From positions 1,178,001 through 1,242,000 of the forward strand of contig NZ_LT906446.1 of the NCBI RefSeq assembly GCF_900187035.1: a stretch of DNA of 64,000 nucleotides. The letters run 5' to 3'. Source of the stretch: Megamonas hypermegale. Its GTDB lineage: Bacteria; Bacillota; Negativicutes; Selenomonadales; Selenomonadaceae. A program made the translations under genes and the position numbers. Below, piece after piece: positions 45,560 through 57,225 of the stretch (positions within the stretch are counted from its first letter, which is position 1; each line of letters starts with the position of its first letter). The notes beneath the pieces are model-generated. The model was not told where the DNA came from, did no database searches, and saw nothing but the letters and a program-made list of their open reading frames with translations.

Positions 45560-45839
45560 TGTTTTACCTCTTCACCATAAAAATAAATACTACAATATTT
45601 TAAATGTATTGTAATATGTTCTTTAATATAGCATAAATGGCTTAAAAATTCAAGATTAACACTACTTTTCACTAAAAATTTATGTAATTTTGTAAACATA
45701 TAAATAATTTATCTTCATTATCATAAGATTTTTTTCTAATAAATACGATAAATACATATCTTTTTCAATCTATGAATTAAAATGATATAATAAATATTAA
45801 CTATTGTTTATGCTCGTTTATATTTTAGGAGGTTTCCTT
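45560..45839. promoter_or_regulatory. Divergent promoter region, esterase operon / hsdR
   Basis: 280 bp, AT-rich, no gene. A TATAAT at 45786-45791, about 48 bp before the hsdR start, is a plausible -10; the sequence 17 bp upstream of it (TTTCAA) is only a weak -35. No clear repeats. Confidence 0.4.
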
Positions 45840-48593
45840 ATGGAATATCAAAGTGAAGCACAATTAGAAAATCAATTAATCCAATCATTAACTACGCAAA
45901 ATTTTACTAAAGTAGATATAAATAATACAGATGATTTACTCATAAATTTTAGGCAACAAATAAATAAATTAAATGCTGAAGCTTTAAATGGCAAAGACCT
46001 TTCAGATAAAGAATTTGACCGCTTGATGACTCAAATCGGCGGAAAAAGCATCTACCAATCAGCAAAAATTTTACGCGATAAATTCACTTTGACGCGCGAT
46101 GATGATACTTCAATTTATATGACTTTATTAAATACCGAAGATTATGCAAAAAACATCTTTCAAGTAACTCATCAAATAAGTGTCAAAGGAACATTTAAAA
46201 ATCGCTATGATGTTACGCTTTTGATAAACGGCTTGCCACTCGTGCAAATCGAATTAAAAAGACGCGGTGGCGATTTAAAAGAAGCATTCTCGCAGATTTT
46301 GCGCTATCGCCGTCACTCTTATCAAGGTTTATTCCGCTACATTCAGTTTTTTGTAATATCCGATGGAGTGGACACAAAATATTTTGCCAACAGCGATACA
46401 AAACCACTCTATTCAATGACATTTTTCTGGACTGATGACAAGAATAAACGCATTTCCAATCTATTCGATTTCACAGAAAAATTTTTAAACACGACGCAAA
46501 TCCTCGATATGATTATCCATTATATGATAGTTAACGATAGTGATAAAAACTTGATGATTATGCGCCCTTATCAGGTGTACGCTACAAAAGCACTGATACA
46601 AAAAGCCTTAACTTCCGATAAAGGCGGTTATATCTGGCATACTACAGGCTCGGGCAAAACGCTCACTTCATTTAAATGCAGTCAAATTCTGTCCCATAAC
46701 TCCAATATTAAAAAAATATTCTTCGTAGTCGACCGCTCTGACCTTGACCGCCAAACCTTGCAGGAATTCAACAAATTTGAAAAAAACTCCGTAGATGCCA
46801 CGGATAACACAAATGTCTTAGCTCGCCAAATAGCTGATAAACATAAAAATTTAATCGTTACAACCATTCAAAAATTAGCCAAAGCATCAAGCTCGCCAAA
46901 ATACAAATCAATCTTTGCCAAATACGCTGATGATAAAATCGTCATAATCTTTGATGAATGTCATCGCTCCACCTTTGGCAAACAATTAAATTGTATAAAA
47001 AAAGTATTCCCGCACCTTCAGATTTTCGGCTTCACAGGCACACCGCGTTTTCCGCAAAATAAATCGCAAGACGGACGCACTACAGCCGATATCTTCGGTA
47101 AATGCCTACACACTTATCTGATTAAAGACGCAATCTTTGACCATAATGTATTAGGCTTCAATGTGGAATACATCAAGACATTTGACGGCGAATACGACCC
47201 GACCGATACGACAAAAGTTCAAGATATCGACAAACAAGAAGTATTCGATGACCCTATTCGCCTAAAATTAATCGCTGAACATATAGTAAAATACCACGAT
47301 ATAAAAACTCATAACCGCAAATACAATGCACTTTTTGCCGTTTCCAGCGTGGATAATTTAATCAGATACTACGATATCTTTAAGAGCTTAAAAACAGATT
47401 TAAAAATAGCCGCCATTTTCACTTATGGCGTAAATGAAGAAGCTGAATTCAAAGATGAGCATTCGCGCGATGCCCTAGAGCGCATAATCCAAGATTACAA
47501 CAAAATGTATCAGACAAATTACGATACTAATACATTTTCTGCCTATGCCAATGATTTAATGAAGAAAATCAAGACTTCGCAAATCGATATTGTAATCGTA
47601 GTCGGCATGATGTTGACTGGTTTTGATGCCAAAGTACTAAATACACTCTACATCGACAAAAATCTCGAATATCACAATTTGCTTCAAGCGTATTCCCGCA
47701 CTAACCGCGTAGAACACACGACAAAACCATTCGGCAATATCATTTGCTATCGCAATTTAAAAGAAAATACCGATAATGCTATACGCTTATTCTCACAGAC
47801 AGATAATATTGATGATGTATTAACGCACGATTTAGCTTCCTATTTAAAAGAAATGCAAGACGCTATAAATGAGTTGACACAGATTGCACCGAAAGCCCAA
47901 AATGTCGACGATTTGCAGACCGAAGAAGAACAGCGCGATTTCGTCTTAGCTTTTCGCAGAGTTAGCCGATTGCAAAATGTACTTAGCAATTTCATTGAAT
48001 TTGATTTTGACAAAGACATCACGAATATGAGTGCACAGGATTTCATGGACTATAAATCAAAATATTTTACAATCTATGAAAATCTTAAAAACGATACATC
48101 AAAAGAAAAAGCTTCTATATTAAATGATATAGATTTCTGCATAGAACTCGTTGCCACTGACCGCATAAATACCACTTATATAATGAACTTAATCCGCAAT
48201 ATCGAACGAAATGATATAATTAAACAACAAACGGAAATCAATCATATCAAAAAAGAATTAAAAAACAGCGATGATATGAAACTTCGCTATAAAATTGACC
48301 TGATTGAAAACTTCCTCGATGAAGTAGTGCCGAAATTAAATCCCGATAGCTCGATTGATGATGCCTACAACGATTTTGAAACACAAGAACGCACTAAGGA
48401 AATAAACAACTTCGCCAAAGAGCATGAACTCGATACAGAAGTTTTACAAAATGAAATAAGCGAATACGAATATACAGGCATTACCAATAAAAGTAATATC
48501 ATGAAATTCATCAAAAAACCTTTCTTAGAAAAAATGAAAATAGCTAATGCCGCTATAACATTTATCAAAAACAACGTACAAAAATATCTATAA
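45840..48593 (+). CDS. hsdR: Type I restriction enzyme, R subunit
   Basis: 917 aa from ATG 45840 (AGGAGG upstream; an earlier in-frame ATG reads through the ribosome site). The N-terminal nuclease domain has VQIELKRRGGDLKEAF (the E-x-K motif). The SF2 motor follows: Walker A IWHTTGSGKTLTSFK near residue 265, motif II FDECHRS near 370 and LTGFDAKVLNTLYIDK with AYSRTNRV as late helicase motifs. A helical C-terminal region probably docks to HsdM. It cuts unmodified DNA after translocation. Followed by hsdM after 15 nt. The complete R-M-S set looks functional. Confidence 0.95.
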   Translation: MEYQSEAQLENQLIQSLTTQNFTKVDINNTDDLLINFRQQINKLNAEALNGKDLSDKEFDRLMTQIGGKSIYQSAKILRDKFTLTRDDDTSIYMTLLNTEDYAKNIFQVTHQISVKGTFKNRYDVTLLINGLPLVQIELKRRGGDLKEAFSQILRYRRHSYQGLFRYIQFFVISDGVDTKYFANSDTKPLYSMTFFWTDDKNKRISNLFDFTEKFLNTTQILDMIIHYMIVNDSDKNLMIMRPYQVYATKALIQKALTSDKGGYIWHTTGSGKTLTSFKCSQILSHNSNIKKIFFVVDRSDLDRQTLQEFNKFEKNSVDATDNTNVLARQIADKHKNLIVTTIQKLAKASSSPKYKSIFAKYADDKIVIIFDECHRSTFGKQLNCIKKVFPHLQIFGFTGTPRFPQNKSQDGRTTADIFGKCLHTYLIKDAIFDHNVLGFNVEYIKTFDGEYDPTDTTKVQDIDKQEVFDDPIRLKLIAEHIVKYHDIKTHNRKYNALFAVSSVDNLIRYYDIFKSLKTDLKIAAIFTYGVNEEAEFKDEHSRDALERIIQDYNKMYQTNYDTNTFSAYANDLMKKIKTSQIDIVIVVGMMLTGFDAKVLNTLYIDKNLEYHNLLQAYSRTNRVEHTTKPFGNIICYRNLKENTDNAIRLFSQTDNIDDVLTHDLASYLKEMQDAINELTQIAPKAQNVDDLQTEEEQRDFVLAFRRVSRLQNVLSNFIEFDFDKDITNMSAQDFMDYKSKYFTIYENLKNDTSKEKASILNDIDFCIELVATDRINTTYIMNLIRNIERNDIIKQQTEINHIKKELKNSDDMKLRYKIDLIENFLDEVVPKLNPDSSIDDAYNDFETQERTKEINNFAKEHELDTEVLQNEISEYEYTGITNKSNIMKFIKKPFLEKMKIANAAITFIKNNVQKYL

Positions 48594-48608
48594 TCAAAGG
48601 AGCAATCT

Positions 48609-50168
48609 ATGTCTACATCAGATATTCAAAAAAATCAACAAAGCCAATTACACGCCACACTTTGGGCAATGGCAAATGACTTGCGTGGCAGTATGGAAGC
48701 ATACGAATTTAAATCCTATATCCTCGGATTAATCTTCTATCGCTATCTATCCGAAAAAGTCGAAAAAGAAGCCTCTAAATTCTTACAATACGATAAAACA
48801 ACATTTGAAGATTACTACACAACAGCAGACGAAGAAACCCAAAGCTTATTTAAACAAGCAATAATTGACTCACTCGGCTATTTTATCGAGCCACAGTATT
48901 TATTTTCCCATTTCACCCAAAGATTAAAAGATGAAGCCACTTTCGATATTGAAGAACTCGATAAGGCGATTGCCGCCATTTCTGAATCCTCATTAGGCAC
49001 AGAAAGCCAGCACGATTTTGAAGGGCTTTTCGATGATATGGATTTAAAATCGACAAAACTCGGCAAAGAAGTCAAAGAGCGAAGCCAAGTTATCGGCAAA
49101 GTATTAGCCAGCATAGATAATTTAGAATTAGAATTTGACAACGCTGAAATTGATGTATTAGGCGATGCCTATGAGTATTTAATCGGTATGTTCGCCCAAA
49201 CAGCAGGCAAAAAAGCAGGCGAATTCTACACACCGCAACCAGTATCCAAAATTCTAGCCCGCATTGTAAGCCTTGGCAAAGACAAACTTTTATCCGTTTA
49301 TGACCCATGTTGCGGTAGTGGTTCTTTGCTACTTCGTATCGGCAAAGAAACTTCCGTTACTTTCTACTACGGACAAGAAAAAACAGCCACGACTTACAAC
49401 CTCGCTCGCATGAATATGCTCTTGCACAATATCCCGTATCAAAATTTCAATATAGTGAACGGCGATACACTCGAAAATCCTGCTTTTATGGATAAAAAAT
49501 TCAGTGCAGTTGTAGCAAATCCGCCATATTCCGCCAAATGGTCAGCAAAAAAAGAATACCTAGAAGATGAACGCTTTAGCCCATACGGCAAACTCGCACC
49601 AGCCAGCAAAGCAGATTTTGCCTTCGTCTGCCATATGCTCCATGCCTTAGATGAAGACGGAACTATGGCAGTAGTTTTACCGCATGGCGTATTATTCCGC
49701 GGTAGCAGTGAAGAAGCAATCCGCAAAGTTTTAATCAAAAACCAAAATGTACTCGATGCAGTAATCGGCTTGCCTGCCAACTTATTTTATGGCACAAGTA
49801 TTCCAACTTGTATTCTCGTCTTCAAGAAAAACCGAGGCGAAAACAGCGATAATATTTTATTTATTGATGCCTCAAAAGAATTTGAAAAAGGCAAAAACCA
49901 AAATTTATTGACTGATGAACATATAGATAAAATCATTAAAACGTATAAAGAACGCCAAGATGTAGATAAATATGCCCATGTTGCCCCAATGGCAGAAATA
50001 GAAGAAAATGACTATAATCTCAATATTCCTCGCTATGTAGATACATTTGAAGAAGAAGAACCAGTCAATTTACAAGCAGAATTTACCGCATTGACTGCAC
50101 TTCAAAACGAAGCAAGAGATATTGATATCGAACTAGATAAATACTTCCAAGAATTGGGGTTAAAATAA
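48609..50168 (+). CDS. hsdM: Type I DNA methyltransferase, M subunit
   Basis: 519 aa, AAAGGAG before ATG. N6-adenine methyltransferase: an N-terminal helical HsdM_N domain (LHATLWAMANDLRGSMEAYEFKSYILGLIFYRYLSEK), then AGEFYTPQPVSKILARI, SAM motif I DPCCGSGSLLLRIG near 235 and catalytic motif IV NPPYSAKW near 300. It acts with HsdS to modify the recognition site and with HsdR to restrict. Its stop overlaps the hsdS start (TAATG), which couples their synthesis. Confidence 0.96.
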   Translation: MSTSDIQKNQQSQLHATLWAMANDLRGSMEAYEFKSYILGLIFYRYLSEKVEKEASKFLQYDKTTFEDYYTTADEETQSLFKQAIIDSLGYFIEPQYLFSHFTQRLKDEATFDIEELDKAIAAISESSLGTESQHDFEGLFDDMDLKSTKLGKEVKERSQVIGKVLASIDNLELEFDNAEIDVLGDAYEYLIGMFAQTAGKKAGEFYTPQPVSKILARIVSLGKDKLLSVYDPCCGSGSLLLRIGKETSVTFYYGQEKTATTYNLARMNMLLHNIPYQNFNIVNGDTLENPAFMDKKFSAVVANPPYSAKWSAKKEYLEDERFSPYGKLAPASKADFAFVCHMLHALDEDGTMAVVLPHGVLFRGSSEEAIRKVLIKNQNVLDAVIGLPANLFYGTSIPTCILVFKKNRGENSDNILFIDASKEFEKGKNQNLLTDEHIDKIIKTYKERQDVDKYAHVAPMAEIEENDYNLNIPRYVDTFEEEEPVNLQAEFTALTALQNEARDIDIELDKYFQELGLK

Positions 50169-51376
50169 TGAATGTACCAAAATTAAGATTTAAAGAATTC
50201 ACTGATGAATGGCAGAAAGTTCCTTTAAATTCATTTACTAATATATTGGGTGGATACGCCTTTAAAAGTGAAAATTTACTAAATTATAAAGCTAAATATC
50301 AAGTTATAAAAATGGGGAATATTAATAATAACACTTTAAATTTAGAAAAAAATCCTAGTTATTTAAATACTATTTCCCAAAAAGAAAAGCCATATTTACT
50401 TAAAAAAGATGATATTATTCTAACGCTAACAGGAACATTTGGAAAAAAAGATTTTGGATATTCTTATCAAATAAAAGATGAAACCAACCTACTTTTAAAT
50501 CAAAGATTAGCTGTTTTTAAAATAATTAATTCAAATTTTTCCTCTAATTTTTTGAAATACATCTTACTAAATAATACATTTCTAAACATATTTTTTAGAT
50601 TTTCTGTTGGTGGTACTGGTAATCAATCTAATGTTAGTATTCAAGATATAAAATCTTTTAAAATTCCCTTTCCCAAAATAGAGGAACAAAAGAAAATTGC
50701 TAACTTCCTTTCTACAGTAGATAAAAAAATATCAAATTTAGAAAACATTATCACTACTTTAGAAAACCAGAAAAAAGGCTTGTTACAACAAATTTTTAGC
50801 CAAAAGGTACGCTTTAAAGATGAAAACGGCAATAATTATCCAGACTGGAAAAAGAAAAATTTAGATGAAATTAGTCTTATTACTATGGGACAATCTCCTG
50901 ATAGTAAATTTATCAACAATGAAAAAATTGGTATTCCTTTTTTACAAGGTAATGCTGAATTTACTAATAAATATCCTATTGAAAAATATTGGTGTACTAA
51001 ACCACAAAAAATTGCAAATCCTACAGATATTTTATTAAGTGTAAGAGCTCCTGTTGGTGCTATAAATACAGCCAATAAAAAATTCTGTATTGGTCGTGGT
51101 TTATCTGCTATTTCTTTTAAATGTAATAAATTATTTGGTAAATATAGCTTAGAATACAACTTATTTCAATTAATAAAAAAAAGCCAAGGAAGTACATTTA
51201 CTTCTGTTAATAAAAAAGATATTTCTGAAATACTTTTATTTGTTCCTTGTTTAGAAGAACAAACAAAAATCGCTGACTTTCTTTCAGCCTTTGACCGCAA
51301 AATCGACAACCAAAAAGCACAGCTAGAACACTGGAAGCAAATAAAAAAAGGACTATTACAGCAAATGTTCGTATAA
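50168..51376 (+). CDS. hsdS: Type I specificity subunit HsdS
   Basis: 402 aa with the usual duplicated layout: TRD1 (about 1-160), a first conserved helical spacer (EEQKKIANFLSTVDKKISNLENIITTLENQKKGLLQQ), TRD2 (about 205-355) and a second spacer (EEQTKIADFLSAFDRKIDNQKAQLEHWKQIKKGLLQQ). The TRDs set which bipartite sequence is recognised and are visibly more AT-rich than hsdM. The repeated spacer segments would be the sites for recombination between alleles, but no second hsdS or invertase is present here. Confidence 0.93.
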   Translation: MNVPKLRFKEFTDEWQKVPLNSFTNILGGYAFKSENLLNYKAKYQVIKMGNINNNTLNLEKNPSYLNTISQKEKPYLLKKDDIILTLTGTFGKKDFGYSYQIKDETNLLLNQRLAVFKIINSNFSSNFLKYILLNNTFLNIFFRFSVGGTGNQSNVSIQDIKSFKIPFPKIEEQKKIANFLSTVDKKISNLENIITTLENQKKGLLQQIFSQKVRFKDENGNNYPDWKKKNLDEISLITMGQSPDSKFINNEKIGIPFLQGNAEFTNKYPIEKYWCTKPQKIANPTDILLSVRAPVGAINTANKKFCIGRGLSAISFKCNKLFGKYSLEYNLFQLIKKSQGSTFTSVNKKDISEILLFVPCLEEQTKIADFLSAFDRKIDNQKAQLEHWKQIKKGLLQQMFV

Positions 51377-51408
51377 AAAAAGCCCCAATCGGGGCTTTTT
51401 TATTTTTC
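51377..51408. terminator. Bidirectional terminator between hsdS and the AAA ATPase
   Basis: AAAAAAGCCCC / GGGGCTTTTTT arms with an AATC loop, T runs on both strands. It overlaps the 3' end of the convergent ATPase gene. Confidence 0.88.
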
Positions 51409-52749
51409 CTTGTATAACTCTACTAATTCATCTAAATTCAATTTATTTAATTTAGGTAACGCATTTTTATATAAATCATTTGTTAAATATCTATTTCTAT
51501 AATTGTACTTAGGATGTAATCTTTCTTCAATATCTGTTACACATTTTATACTTTTATTAAAACCATCAACCATTATAAAATATAATGCTTCTGGTTTTAT
51601 TACTATTTGATCCATTAATAACGTATTGTGTGTAGTAATTATAAGTTGTCCTTTTATTAACTTATTAACAGATTCTATCAATTTTACTGTTAACAAATCA
51701 TGTATACCATTTCCAAATTCATCAATTATAACAAATTTACTATCTATAGCCTTCACTAGATACGGTAATAAATCAAATAATTCATGTGTTCCTGTTGATT
51801 CAGCAGCAAAACTTATATCAAATACATTATCTTTTATTCTCTTTGTTAACATTAATTCATATTCAATACCATTATCATGCTCTACTCTTTTATAATATGC
51901 TTTTTCAACATTAGTATACAAAGTTCTTATTATTTCATCTAATACCTTTTCTAATTTATTTAACAAAGCAACATCTTTTTTCTTGATAATACCACTTTCA
52001 AAATCACACAACATTGGTGTATCTACACATAAAGACATTCTTTCTCCGCTATGATCATTTTTTATCTTGTAATTTATTTGTTTAAAATAATTTATTATTT
52101 TTATGATATTTTCCCAAACATTTTTTTCAATATATTCTTTCGTCTTATCTTCCATTTCAAAAAATAAAATGGATAACAATGTATGTTTTCCCCAATACAT
52201 TTCTATTTGTTTTTTTATATTTAAAGAGAACTCTTCTGTAAGAAACACATTGTTATTTATCATAATGGAGTTTTTTTCTATATCAAATAAGCATCCTCTT
52301 TTTTTATTTATTTTATATTCTAATCTTTCTCTTACTATCGAAGTATCATCCATCTCTATATAATACTTCCCTGTAGAGCCGTCTAAGACAAAACCATATT
52401 CTAAAACCATATTTTCTTTTGAATTTTTTAGCTTATATTCTTCTATAATGCTTTCCATTTCATTATTAGATAATCTATCTTTTATCACTTCTAATATTAC
52501 TTCTGACTTTAATGGTATCCCTTTCGGTATTGGTATTTTATTTTCAAAAATATCTTTTAACATATCCCTAGACCGCATAGTTACTAGTGTTTTTTTCAAT
52601 AAAGCAAAAACATGAACTAGTGTTGTTTTTCCGCTACCATTAGCTCCATAAATTACAGCTATCTTTTTAGGTGTGTCTTTTCTTTTTTGTAAATTAAAAC
52701 AAGTATCACTAAAAGATTTAAAATTTTTCATATTTACATATGTAAACAT
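51400..52749 (-). CDS. AAA-family (AAA_15/AAA_21) ATPase, defence-associated type
   Basis: 449 aa. SMC/ABC-like P-loop ATPase: FKSFSDTCFNLQK, Walker A YGANGSGKTT near residue 37, a long variable helical insert, FAAESTGTHELFDLLPYLVKAI (signature-like), Walker B KFVIIDEFGNGIHDLLT near 345, and the H-loop IITTHNTLLMDQ near 375. There is no TOPRIM or other nuclease domain, so it is not an OLD nuclease. Related stand-alone ATPases (RloA, AbiL-type) lie in defence islands, usually with a partner gene; none is adjacent on its strand. Between a type I R-M system and the MBL operon. Confidence 0.78.
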   Translation of the reverse strand: MFTYVNMKNFKSFSDTCFNLQKRKDTPKKIAVIYGANGSGKTTLVHVFALLKKTLVTMRSRDMLKDIFENKIPIPKGIPLKSEVILEVIKDRLSNNEMESIIEEYKLKNSKENMVLEYGFVLDGSTGKYYIEMDDTSIVRERLEYKINKKRGCLFDIEKNSIMINNNVFLTEEFSLNIKKQIEMYWGKHTLLSILFFEMEDKTKEYIEKNVWENIIKIINYFKQINYKIKNDHSGERMSLCVDTPMLCDFESGIIKKKDVALLNKLEKVLDEIIRTLYTNVEKAYYKRVEHDNGIEYELMLTKRIKDNVFDISFAAESTGTHELFDLLPYLVKAIDSKFVIIDEFGNGIHDLLTVKLIESVNKLIKGQLIITTHNTLLMDQIVIKPEALYFIMVDGFNKSIKCVTDIEERLHPKYNYRNRYLTNDLYKNALPKLNKLNLDELVELYKEK

Positions 52750-52862: not shown

Positions 52863-52891
52863 TAGACAAACTTTTATCAATGTGATATGAT
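52863..52891 (+). promoter_or_regulatory. Sigma-A-type promoter of the MBL operon
   Basis: TAGACA (52863-52868) and TATGAT (52886-52891) are separated by exactly 17 bp; each is one base from consensus. The predicted start lies at about 52897-52899, just before the CIRCE-like element. Confidence 0.65.
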
Positions 52892-52900
52892 ATTAATACA

Positions 52901-52927
52901 TTAGCACTCGATTACTAACAGTGCTAA
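52901..52927. promoter_or_regulatory. CIRCE-like HrcA operator
   Basis: TTAGCACTC, nine bases, CAGTGCTAA. The CIRCE consensus is TTAGCACTC-N9-GAGTGCTAA, so only one arm base differs (C for G) and the 9-bp spacer is exact. It directly follows the predicted transcription start, as CIRCE does in groE and dnaK operons. The gene downstream is not a chaperone but the MBL operon. Confidence 0.72.
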
Positions 52928-53064: not shown

Positions 53065-53952
53065 ATGAATATACGTATTCTCTCTTCAAAAACTTATCCA
53101 GAAAATAGTCGTATTAACTATGGTGATTGCATTTTGATTGATGATAATACCAATCATACACTAATCATTTATGATTGCGGACACGAAGAACACGCTAAAC
53201 AAGTCATAAAATACATGGATACTCACAATTACTCAAAAGCCACATTTATTTTATCTCATAACGATTCAGACCATTTTAACGGTCTACAAACTCTTTTAGA
53301 TGCGGATAAAATTGATAAAATCATAACAACATTACTTTTAAAATACGTTGACCAAATTTTGGATGAAATCGATGATAACCGTAAAACACGCAATTCTCTA
53401 AAAAACCAAATACTGGATAAATACGATAACATCGCTAAACTTTCTGGGTATCCTATAAAGGATTACTATGAAATCAATCCTCAAATAACTTCCAATGTGA
53501 AACTTGTAGGTCCATCATTTGAATACATGATTTCTGCTGTAGCCAAACATTTAGATACTACTGAAGGTGATACAGTAGATCAAGAATCCCCTTATAATGC
53601 TACAAGCCTACTTGTAGAAGTTGCTGTAAACGGAAAAAAACTTTTGCTCACAGGAGATTGTGCATTTTCTCCTATAGAGAAGCTTGTAACAGACTATGAT
53701 TACATCCAACTTCCTCATCATGGTAAAGTTAAACAGGCTGAAAAAATATTCGAAAAAAATATTTTTAAATATTATGTAGAATATTATATTTCGGACAATA
53801 CTGGCAATTCTAATGGTGGTTCAGATAAATTGGATACTACTGGTCATATTGTTTATAACACTAAAATTTTAGGTAATTTATCTATTATAGATAAAAATTA
53901 CACCCAAAACCATTCACTGATACCACCTATCATTGGCAGCTATGGAGAATAA
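53065..53952 (+). CDS. MBL-fold (ComEC/Rec2-like) metallohydrolase
   Basis: 295 aa from ATG 53065 (GGAGG 53052-53056; the upstream ATG 53050 is part of the ribosome site). Metallo-beta-lactamase fold of the ComEC/Rec2-C-terminal type without membrane helices. The metal motif is SHNDSDHFNG (residues 64-73), then KLLLTGDCAFSPIEKL near 200 and a late LPHHGK near 220. Such domains usually cut phosphodiesters (RNA, DNA or nucleotides). First gene of a tight three-gene operon (2-nt gap to the next) behind a CIRCE-like operator, next to restriction and ATPase genes, so a defence role is plausible. Cytoplasmic. Confidence 0.8.
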   Translation: MNIRILSSKTYPENSRINYGDCILIDDNTNHTLIIYDCGHEEHAKQVIKYMDTHNYSKATFILSHNDSDHFNGLQTLLDADKIDKIITTLLLKYVDQILDEIDDNRKTRNSLKNQILDKYDNIAKLSGYPIKDYYEINPQITSNVKLVGPSFEYMISAVAKHLDTTEGDTVDQESPYNATSLLVEVAVNGKKLLLTGDCAFSPIEKLVTDYDYIQLPHHGKVKQAEKIFEKNIFKYYVEYYISDNTGNSNGGSDKLDTTGHIVYNTKILGNLSIIDKNYTQNHSLIPPIIGSYGE

Positions 53953-53954
53953 TC

Positions 53955-54485
53955 ATGACCATTTATCTATTTTCATTATCTGCATTATCATCTCAAACTG
54001 AAATACTCGCTCAAAAACAATTTTTTGAGCGAGTATTTCGTCTCTATTTTACTCTCGTTAATACATCTAATATATATTATTACAAAAAAATATATTATTA
54101 CAAAAAAAAATATAAAAAAACACACAACCAACTATATACGGTTTATCAATTTACCAGTATACCATCTAATGATTTATCTAATGTTGCCATATTAATTGGG
54201 CACAACTTTTTGATAACTAGCTATCTAGCTAATCATCAATTAACAGAGAAAAATCTGTATTGTATAACTTGTGACTATCATTTATTTTATTTATACAGAA
54301 AACAATATAATCTTTTTCTCTGTAAACAGATTGATAATAAGTGCTTTTTATTCGATAAAAATGCTTATAACATGAAGTTTAATCCAACTTTTGCCCATTT
54401 AATCCTTTTACAAGCAAAGAAACACCATTCTGTTGAGGAATGTTTAAGTTTAGCCTTTAATAAAATTGATATCAAGGAGATGTAG
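53955..54485 (+). CDS. Protein of unknown function in MBL operon
   Basis: 176 aa, unrecognised. ATG 53955 lies 2 nt after the upstream stop, with GGAG inside the upstream gene's end. The product is rich in Tyr, Lys, Leu and Ser; a Tyr/Lys run (YYYKKIYYYKKKYKK, residues 40-54) is encoded by an 18-bp tandem repeat and long A tracts. The second half has ILIGHNFLITSYLANHQL and a Cys/Tyr-rich stretch. There is no signal peptide or clear transmembrane segment. The gene contains an 18-bp perfect inverted repeat (54000-54039). It is conserved in position between an MBL enzyme and a membrane protein, so probably their partner. Confidence 0.6.
   Translation: MTIYLFSLSALSSQTEILAQKQFFERVFRLYFTLVNTSNIYYYKKIYYYKKKYKKTHNQLYTVYQFTSIPSNDLSNVAILIGHNFLITSYLANHQLTEKNLYCITCDYHLFYLYRKQYNLFLCKQIDNKCFLFDKNAYNMKFNPTFAHLILLQAKKHHSVEECLSLAFNKIDIKEM
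54000..54039 (+). repeat. 18-bp perfect inverted repeat inside a coding gene
   Basis: Arms 54000-54017 and 54022-54039 are exact complements around a 4-nt CAAT loop; they encode EILAQKQFFERVF. The stem has a GC-rich core (CTCGCTC) and no T tract after it, so it is not a clean terminator. Confidence 0.75.
54073..54108 (+). repeat. Tandem 18-bp direct repeat with A tracts
   Basis: TATATTATTACAAAAAAA is repeated back to back at 54073-54090 and 54091-54108, followed by more A runs (A9 at 54102-54110). In frame it encodes YYYKKI/YYYKKK. Prone to slippage. Confidence 0.8.
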
Positions 54486-54487
54486 CC

Positions 54488-54985
54488 ATGTCTAAACTTT
54501 TAAGTAAAATTAGCTCATATAACATATTAAACAATCTTGTTCCTGGATTTATGTATTACTATTTTATGGATATCTTCTTTCATATAAAACTTATTTCAGA
54601 TGATACTGTTTTAAAATTTTTCTTCTTCTATTTTATAGGTATATGTATTAGCCGAATAGGTTCTTTAATTATTGAACCTATTTTAAAAATAATTCATTTT
54701 ACAATACCTTTCAATCATACTAATTATATAAACGCTTCTATGAAAGACTCTAAAATAGAAGTTCTATATGAAATAAACAATTCATATAGAACCATTATTG
54801 CCCTATTTGTTTTTATCCTAATATCTTATATCTATAATTATGGATTTACAAACATTTCTTTTTCTTATCCATTTGATATTATTCTTTTCGGCTTTATTTT
54901 GTTTATGTTTTCTTACAGAAAGCAATCAAACTACATTCATAACCGAGTATCTATTGCTCTACAAGATGAAAAGACTATTTCTTAA
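54488..54985 (+). CDS. Membrane protein of unknown function in MBL operon
   Basis: 165 aa with AAGGAG before ATG 54488, 2 nt after the previous stop. There are about four hydrophobic segments in two pairs (residues ~20-40 and ~42-70; ~103-120 and ~127-146). A conserved-looking N-terminus (KISSYNILNNLVPGFMYY) and a polar loop with DSKIEVLYEINNSYR separate the pairs. The size and topology suit a small inner-membrane effector or sensor such as those of abortive-infection systems, but no specific family could be named. Last gene of the operon. Confidence 0.65.
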   Translation: MSKLLSKISSYNILNNLVPGFMYYYFMDIFFHIKLISDDTVLKFFFFYFIGICISRIGSLIIEPILKIIHFTIPFNHTNYINASMKDSKIEVLYEINNSYRTIIALFVFILISYIYNYGFTNISFSYPFDIILFGFILFMFSYRKQSNYIHNRVSIALQDEKTIS

Positions 54986-55271
54986 GTAGCAAACGGCTCT
55001 TTTCTTTCAATAAATCTTCTCTCATATTGTCATTTTGCCAATAAGCTATTATACTTTCCCTACAATTACAATTTAACTTTATTCTTTTTTTGTGTTATAA
55101 TAAGAAATACAGAGTATTATTCTTTGTACCTATTAACATTTTTTCTTTCAAATGTTAACATTTCTTCTTCATAAGTAAAAAGCCAAGCGTATTGTAAAAA
55201 TATGTTTGGCTTTTTTCATCTTTAATATATTTATAAAAATTTTTCCAAATTCTATAAGGAGGTTTTATCTT
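54986..55271. other. Intergenic region with terminator before the 79-aa ORF
   Basis: 286 bp without a gene. It contains a hairpin terminator at 55177-55216 (AAAAAGCCAA / TTTGGCTTTTTT) and a TTATAAT at about 55096. No other structured element seen. Confidence 0.55.
55177..55216 (+). terminator. Terminator upstream of the small ORF
   Basis: AAAAAGCCAA and TTTGGCTTTTTT arms with an AT-rich loop. It probably ends the MBL operon transcript; it lies before ATG 55272. Confidence 0.7.
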
Positions 55272-55704: not shown

Positions 55705-56664
55705 ATGGATGAGCAAAATATTTTCTATCACTACACATCAATCAATTCACTATACAGCATCATAACCAGCCGTGAACTTTGGCTGACTAATCTAAAATCT
55801 TCTAACGATAAATCAGAACGATATTATACTGTAAATCGTATGCTCAAGGATATGGACGAAATTATAGACAATTCCACTGATGATAATTTCAAACAATATC
55901 TATCTTTGCTCAAAAAGAGCTTTAATATCCATATGCCTGAACAAAGAAAATACCTGAAAAAATCAGATGGCTATTCGCTCAGTTTAACGGATAAAAAAGA
56001 CAATTTATCACACTGGGAGCGATATGCTGCTGGTTATAGCGGTGTTTGTATCGGTATCAATATGGATAAATTAAATGTCAGCTTTAAGGATTATTCGCAT
56101 TTTTCCATAACAGAGCTAGAAAAAATTTTGTACAGCGATGAAGAGATTTTAAATAAACTCATGCAAATTTGCTCGCGTTTTTATACATTGTTTGAAGAGC
56201 AAGTCCGTACTTATAACGAGTCTTTTCAAAAATACATTGAACAATACGGTTTTATCGTCTTAATAATCGCTTACCATAAATTAATGAACTTCGCTAAAAA
56301 TAGTTATTTTGCTGATGAGCATGAATTTCGCTTGCTGTTTTATCCCAAAACCTTGATGATGAAAAAAGATTTTTTGACTATGAGCAAAAATATCATAATT
56401 CCTGAAACGTTTAAACTACTGCATGATAAATTTAACTCTTCACTTAAAAATACCGCCATTGAACAGACGCATTTTTCAGTGTTTAAAAATGAAATCCGTA
56501 GCTACCATAAACTTTGTCTATCGCATATTTGGGATAGCAAATTAATCCCTGAGATTACACTCGGCGCTATGTGCAGGCAAAACAAGCAGGAGCTTGCTCA
56601 TTTTCTCAAGGCAAATGGGCTTACTAAAACGAAAATCACTATTTCTAAAATTCCAATACGATAA
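55705..56664 (+). CDS. DUF2971 protein
   Basis: 319 aa, ATG 55705 with GAGG upstream. The N-terminus has the family's FYHYTSINSLYSIITSRELWLTNLKSSNDKSE stretch. The middle reads SLTDKKDNLSHWERYAAGYSGVCIGIN, and a later ADEHEFRLLF carries the conserved Glu-x-Glu-Phe-Arg. The layout HYT...YS...E-x-E resembles ADP-ribosyltransferase-type folds such as DarT, but this is my inference and not an established function. Soluble. It is 54 nt upstream of a macrodomain gene on the same strand, a context that fits an ADP-ribosylation toxin with its reversing partner. Located in the defence island. Confidence 0.78.
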   Translation: MDEQNIFYHYTSINSLYSIITSRELWLTNLKSSNDKSERYYTVNRMLKDMDEIIDNSTDDNFKQYLSLLKKSFNIHMPEQRKYLKKSDGYSLSLTDKKDNLSHWERYAAGYSGVCIGINMDKLNVSFKDYSHFSITELEKILYSDEEILNKLMQICSRFYTLFEEQVRTYNESFQKYIEQYGFIVLIIAYHKLMNFAKNSYFADEHEFRLLFYPKTLMMKKDFLTMSKNIIIPETFKLLHDKFNSSLKNTAIEQTHFSVFKNEIRSYHKLCLSHIWDSKLIPEITLGAMCRQNKQELAHFLKANGLTKTKITISKIPIR

Positions 56665-56666
56665 TT

Positions 56667-56693
56667 TATAAATAAAATATAACTTTATTTATA
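56667..56693. repeat. Inverted repeat between DUF2971 and macrodomain genes
   Basis: TATAAATAAA - 7 nt - TTTATTTATA, perfect 10-bp arms. All A/T, so it may be chance, or a weak operator or hairpin. Confidence 0.35.
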
Positions 56694-56718
56694 ATAATTA
56701 ATGATTGAAGGTGTTTTT

Positions 56719-57225
56719 ATGAGTAAAATTCAAATTGATTTAGGCGATATTACAAGACTTGATTGTGATGCTATCGTCAATGCTGCTAATAAAACACTGC
56801 TCGGCGGTGGTGGCGTAGATGGAGCAATTCACCGCGCAGCAGGGCATGAACTTTTAAATGAATGTCGCACACTCGGCGGTTGCAATACTGGTGAAGCAAA
56901 AATCACTAAAGGCTATAAATTAAAGGCAAAATATGTCATTCACACTGTTGGGCCGATTTATTCAGGCAAGGACAGCGATGCTACAAATCTTGCAAACTGC
57001 TATAAAAATTCGCTCGATTTGGCTAAAAAATACGATGTTCATTCCATAGCTTTTCCTGCAATCTCCACTGGTGTTTACCATTATCCTCTAGAAGATGCTA
57101 CAAAAATTGCTATAGCAACTGTTGATACTTGGCTAAAAAATAATTCAGATTATGATATGACAATTATTTATTCTTGCTTTGATACGAAAACATACAATAT
57201 GTATAAAGCGTATCTCAAGTTATAA
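56719..57225 (+). CDS. Macrodomain ADP-ribose hydrolase (MacroD/YmdB type)
   Basis: 168 aa from ATG 56719 (GAAGGTG upstream); an earlier ATG at 56701 has no ribosome site. A single macrodomain: [23 protein letters not shown] (ADP-ribose loop 1, residues ~22-44) and the second phosphate-binding loop [16 protein letters not shown] near 115. Such enzymes remove mono-ADP-ribose from acidic residues or deacetylate O-acetyl-ADP-ribose. It lies directly after a DUF2971 gene, so it may neutralise ADP-ribosylation catalysed by that protein. The closing terminator is at 57245-57274. Cytoplasmic. Confidence 0.88.

Follow-up and report, generated by a model that had tools for sequence, protein, structure and literature searches.

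A CIRCE heat-shock operator in front of an MBL-fold candidate defence operon of Megamonas hypermegale

In the genome of Megamonas hypermegale, a CIRCE repeat lies directly behind the promoter of a three-gene operon that encodes an MBL-fold hydrolase (MBL), a protein of no known family (MID) and a small membrane protein (MEM). The comparisons described below confirm that the operator is real and that it goes with this cassette. Control of the operon by HrcA is well supported, because the operator recurs at orthologous loci, because such sites are otherwise found only at heat-shock genes in the host genomes examined and because HrcA is encoded in the genome, although repression by HrcA is itself inferred from sequence, with no binding or expression data. 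The CIRCE switch normally controls chaperone genes only. We assign a probability of about 0.78 to the reading that a true HrcA operator puts a mobile, candidate anti-phage operon into the heat-shock regulon of its host. The window referred to throughout is the whole stretch of DNA that was analysed, 64,000 nucleotides in length, and its relevant features are as follows:

45804–51376, plus strand: type I restriction system with hsdR, hsdM and hsdS, next to the cassette.
51400–52749, minus strand: divergent AAA_21 ATPase gene, AbiLi-like (6.4e-41), a recurrent neighbour of CIRCE-bearing cassettes whose membership of the system is not shown.
52863–52891, plus strand: sigma-A-type promoter TAGACA-N17-TATGAT with extended TG (from the sequence).
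52901–52927, plus strand: CIRCE operator with one mismatch, where HrcA is predicted to bind at roughly transcript positions +3 to +30 (from scans and orthologues).
53065–53952, plus strand: MBL-fold hydrolase of 295 residues with the fold of a ComEC-like nuclease and an HxDxDH motif, PDC-M48B (from PADLOC, predicted model and alignment).
53955–54485, plus strand: MID, a 176-residue protein that fits no known family; His83 and Cys106, both invariant, sit where neighbouring strands end.
54488–54985, plus strand: MEM, small membrane protein, 165 aa, PDC-M48A (3.7e-47).
55177–55215, plus strand: terminator-like hairpin that could end the operon.

Promoter and operator were read directly from the letters. 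TAGACA (52863–52868) and TATGAT (52886–52891) are separated by a 17-nt spacer, and the repeat TTAGCACTC-N9-CAGTGCTAA (in full, TTAGCACTCGATTACTAACAGTGCTAA) begins 9 nt after the -10 element and ends 137 nt before the MBL start. Compared with CIRCE (TTAGCACTC-N9-GAGTGCTAA), one of the 18 fixed bases deviates, while the spacer is exactly 9. An earlier, sequence-only reading had reported this promoter and the CIRCE-like repeat behind it, one arm base away from CIRCE with exact spacing and placed as in groE/dnaK, and it was borne out on each point when 52863–52927 was re-read; in the genome's own groESL and htpG promoters, CIRCE starts 12–13 nt after the -10 element. The repeat thus lies behind the promoter and ahead of the start codon, close to +1, as do the operators of the HrcA regulon. 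It should be noted that promoter-like sites show no excess in the window as a whole (26 found, 22.4 expected), and that the cassette promoter is among the best-scoring of them (10 of 12). Scanning the window for CIRCE with up to three mismatches returned one match, where 0.01 were expected.

The host possesses a conventional HrcA system. When its whole genome (2.23 Mb) was scanned with up to three mismatches, exactly four CIRCE sites were obtained, every one with zero or one mismatch, and the three outside the window precede htpG, hrcA-grpE-dnaK and groESL (the genes being identified by sequence). HrcA is encoded beside dnaK (PF01628, 6.9e-60). The window site therefore shares with the HrcA/CIRCE regulon of Bacillota (groESL, hrcA-grpE-dnaK) its operator sequence, its 9-nt spacer, its position after the -10 element and the presence of hrcA, but differs in its target, which is no chaperone but the operon of a candidate defence system carried by a variable island.

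For the comparison with orthologues, a profile built from two MBL proteins yielded 26 loci in the genome collection and two in the viral collection. Searching a further 391 and 295 genomes added very few orthologues, and viral contigs contributed only the two cassette relatives. The common core of these loci is MBL-MID-MEM, a few having an unrelated or unrecognised third gene or being cut by a contig end. The window and the 28 related loci were scanned for CIRCE with up to three mismatches. All eight sites found in these 29 loci fall within the 250 nt that precede MBL, and none lies elsewhere in 313 kb of these loci (binomial p 6e-14). The number of mismatches is one in the window, L060 and L076, two in L057, L059, L062 and L072, and three in L051. 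L059 and L062 are near copies and were counted once, which leaves seven independent sites among 28 independent loci, the window included. CIRCE-bearing loci are thus a minority, and about three quarters of the loci have no such site. In six of the seven, a promoter-like sequence is followed by CIRCE after 4–12 nt (e.g., TTGACA-N17-TATAAT in L051 and TTGACA-N17-TATGAT in L072), the promoter of L059 being weak. A scan of the phylum illustrates the arrangement in Clostridium sp. D33t1 (G557, locus L060), where the same three genes are found with a one-mismatch CIRCE directly before MBL. Absence from related MBL operons had been named in advance as grounds for refutation, and the recurrence, with no site elsewhere in those loci, removes that objection. 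The claim of HrcA control itself stands with a qualification: orthologous CIRCE sites, HrcA and three canonical sites in the genome support it, whereas most orthologues lack the site.

Two other elements were seen upstream of related cassettes. L063, L068, L070 and L073, all of one clade, carry a degenerate CIRCE-like form with 4–6 mismatches, a ATAGCAGCC left arm and weak promoters, and in the same four loci an AAA_21 ATPase gene and an RloB-like gene precede the cassette (221–2162 in L063). Separately, a GCAAGC-loop-GCTTGC hairpin lies directly before the ribosome-binding site, within the last 40 nt before the MBL start, and is conserved in nine relatives (L056, L060, L063, L068, L070, L072, L073, L076 and L077), with compensatory changes at three of its six pairs. 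It is absent from the window and is possibly a translational control element.

Whether such repeats occur at other kinds of genes was assessed in the six other host genomes, from which every remaining CIRCE with up to two mismatches was taken. All 26 of these sites adjoin groES, hrcA, htpG, clpB or hsp20, as judged from the encoded sequences and the positions of hrcA. As a few of the 26 lie between two divergent genes, the heat-shock gene is there the likely target, though others are possible. The right arm CAGTGCTAA, in which the window deviates, recurs at hsp20 and clpB sites of other hosts, so that the deviation can be regarded as a tolerated natural variant. We detected hrcA in all but one of the six other host species, and also in the hosts of L062 (the near copy) and L063 (the degenerate form). 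In the sixth, the draft MAG G580 that hosts L057, a search for hrcA detected none, even though three perfect and two one-mismatch CIRCE sites are present. Since the genome is a draft MAG with three perfect sites, an assembly gap is probably the reason. In viral contigs (L147–L226 and L251–L282), CIRCE or the window-type variant was noted in more than 100 contigs; groES, hsp20, clpB or htpG lies just downstream in 47 of the 101 viral loci examined, and host contamination is not excluded.

Downstream of CIRCE, the MBL, MID and MEM genes form one uninterrupted run at 53065–54985, in line with the hydrolase, unknown protein and membrane protein described from sequence alone. MEM contains hydrophobic segments and matches the PADLOC model PDC-M48A (3.7e-47), while MBL matches PDC-M48B (2e-20), the two models of a candidate anti-phage system. 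PDC-M48B matches all 28 members of the MBL alignment, in which the HxDxDH motif, D198 and H218/H219 are invariant. The predicted model of MBL is confident (pLDDT 84, pTM 0.86) and its closest structure is the ComEC beta-lactamase-like domain (9ic4, E 1.7e-12). This domain is a nuclease according to the literature; MBL is ComEC-like by fold only, and its nuclease activity is inferred. For MID, the predicted model is likewise confident (pLDDT 86, pTM 0.83) and places two invariant residues, His83 and Cys106, where adjacent strands end, a layout that suggests what a caspase-like dyad would show. As there is no fold or family match, we treat this as a lead only. The reading of MID as a caspase or CHAT protease gained no support, with no match in Pfam, in Foldseek against PDB and BFVD, or in a PDB sequence search.

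Two repeats were also observed within the MID gene. Near its start, 53999–54040 is an 18-bp perfect inverted repeat (GAAATACTCGCTCAAAAA...TTTTTGAGCGAGTATTTC) with a 4-nt loop (z -9.3), which has no second copy in the genome and no equally strong counterpart in the nine relatives checked; it could act as an intra-operon attenuator. At 54072–54113, a unit of 18 nt is repeated in tandem (2.3 copies). It contains A runs, at which slippage could be possible, and falls in a lower-confidence stretch of MID that is absent from relatives.

The cassette resembles several known systems in part. Both its M48A membrane protein and its M48B MBL match the PDC-M48 models, but a third gene, MID, lies between the two, and in the P2-phage and plasmid relatives the two genes are convergent and without CIRCE. 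In the P2-like phage P24E6b (L044, 4001–5589; also H7–H9), an M48A-like membrane gene and a ComEC-like MBL gene point towards each other behind the replication gene, close to the end of the genome, and the small plasmids L045 and L046 have similar pairs. Pairs in which a caspase or a trypsin-like protease activates an MBL pro-nuclease have been described (PMC12799240). The window operon is similar to such pairs (Hachiman, AVAST, Lamassu, DRT) and to the canu caspase-nuclease described there in having a ComEC-like MBL with a small co-encoded partner, MID, that has an invariant His and Cys, and it shows weak matches to the RTasMBL, LmuA and Avs1a models. It differs from them in that neither Pfam nor Foldseek found a trypsin or caspase domain in MID, and in having a membrane protein and no helicase or STAND sensor gene. 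As in RloA/RloB and AbiLi-type systems, an AAA_21 ATPase adjoins the cassette, with an RloB-like partner in the L063 group; the ATPases, however, vary among loci and face away from the cassette at CIRCE loci.

The genomic setting of the cassette had been described as a defence island, and this description is upheld by the type I restriction system and AbiLi-like ATPase immediately to the left and by the PDC-M48 match. Restriction genes are found near the cassette in several other loci as well. The G+C content of the cassette is 27.7%, against 33.7% for the window, and no close relative was found in 189 genomes of the window's own family; together, these fit an acquisition from elsewhere. After the cassette, 55705–57225 encodes a DUF2971 protein (weak PADLOC PDC-S31 matches) and a macro-domain ADP-ribose hydrolase. 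We infer from this context that a role in anti-phage defence is probable, keeping in mind that PDC-M48 is only a PADLOC candidate. The same operator could nonetheless serve a cassette that is a stress-response or DNA-processing module, in which case HrcA control would have its ordinary stress meaning. HrcA control does signal protein stress directly, MID and MEM have no known function, and no member of the three-gene form is known to have been tested. The match to a candidate defence system, the restriction, AbiLi-like and RloB-like genes close by, the patchy presence of the cassette across genomes and the pairing, in P2-like phages, of a related M48A-like gene with an adjacent MBL gene all speak for defence instead. 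We regard a pure stress module as unlikely, but it cannot be set aside.

The distribution of the operator bears on whether another protein might read it. In the MBL protein tree, CIRCE loci appear in both deep clades and five changes are needed, so the site has been lost often or gained more than once, and the tree does not tell a single ancient gain followed by losses apart from repeated gains. Loci without CIRCE appear to tend towards another solution, either a regulator of their own or a restriction operon. Putative upstream regulators were recognised by HTH matches in L056, L065 and L078 (weaker in L067) and by resemblance to L067 in L075, and L074 has one without a Pfam match; in L061, L064 and L066, the cassette lies inside a type I restriction operon with no CIRCE. 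Mutual exclusion of CIRCE and an upstream HTH regulator was considered and not accepted, the counts (0 of 7 versus 6 of 21, Fisher 0.29) being suggestive and not significant. A divergent ATPase gene, on the other hand, is present at six of the seven CIRCE loci and at only two of the 21 others (Fisher 0.0005, uncorrected for relatedness). This enrichment, together with the degenerate version with its ATAGCAGCC left arm in four loci of one clade, would allow the palindrome to be read by a regulator other than HrcA, for instance one acting with the ATPase. Yet the letters are those of the HrcA site itself, the site occurs in L072 with no ATPase, and the identical sequence is found at chaperone genes in all hosts, which renders a different reader improbable.

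That the repeat is a leader RNA stem-loop or mRNA stabiliser, its likeness to CIRCE being incidental, is less probable still. A transcript hairpin of about ten pairs is possible (z -2.5), but the outer-arm letters TTAGCA and TGCTAA are kept across loci while the bases further in change in ways that do not maintain pairing (L057, L059 and L051). It is thus the letters of the arms, and not their pairing, that are conserved, which disfavours an RNA element, and a search of Rfam for a leader element gave no match. Chance, which has nothing in its favour beyond the single mismatch's being there at all, is rejected outright, given the orthologous sites and an expectation, by base composition, of 0.0013 one-mismatch sites per 2.23-Mb genome.

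If the operon is indeed under HrcA, protein-folding stress probably turns it on. HrcA is active only with the help of GroE, and under the titration model, as summarised in PMC8533110, the promoters it controls are released when unfolded proteins take up GroE. In an unstressed cell, free GroEL would keep HrcA active and bound over the first transcribed bases, holding the operon low. Unfolded protein, from heat or plausibly from a burst of phage protein, would fill GroEL, upon which HrcA would become inactive and leave the operator, and transcription of the operon would rise alongside that of groESL, dnaK and htpG. Its proteins would then make up a nuclease module of ComEC-like type, the activity of which is probably gated by the partner proteins. 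Phage infection is a plausible GroEL stress, although its effect here is inferred, with no data for this locus. A study of the Campylobacter carrier state discusses phage-encoded GroES and HrcA derepression, although the expression of hrcA that it measured was lower in the carrier cultures (PMC4534711). One may go further and propose that the infection sensor of the cassette is the host chaperonin itself, with GroEL-loading phage proteins inactivating HrcA and so arming the nuclease, and that this alarm has spread with the cassette among Bacillota; this we offer tentatively, as a possibility that remains rather doubtful. The sequence-only reading had anticipated that HrcA control of such a cassette would be new, and our literature search, of partial coverage, indeed found no paper on PDC-M48 and no earlier HrcA-controlled defence cassette.

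In the genomes examined, HrcA and CIRCE are otherwise confined to chaperone and protease genes. If a defence operon is under CIRCE, a mobile immune cassette would need no regulator of its own and would instead listen to the protein-folding stress of its host. The demand for chaperonin that arises during phage infection would thereby be tied to the induction of immunity in a simple way that can be tested, and CIRCE beside island genes may serve as a search rule for further stress-armed systems.
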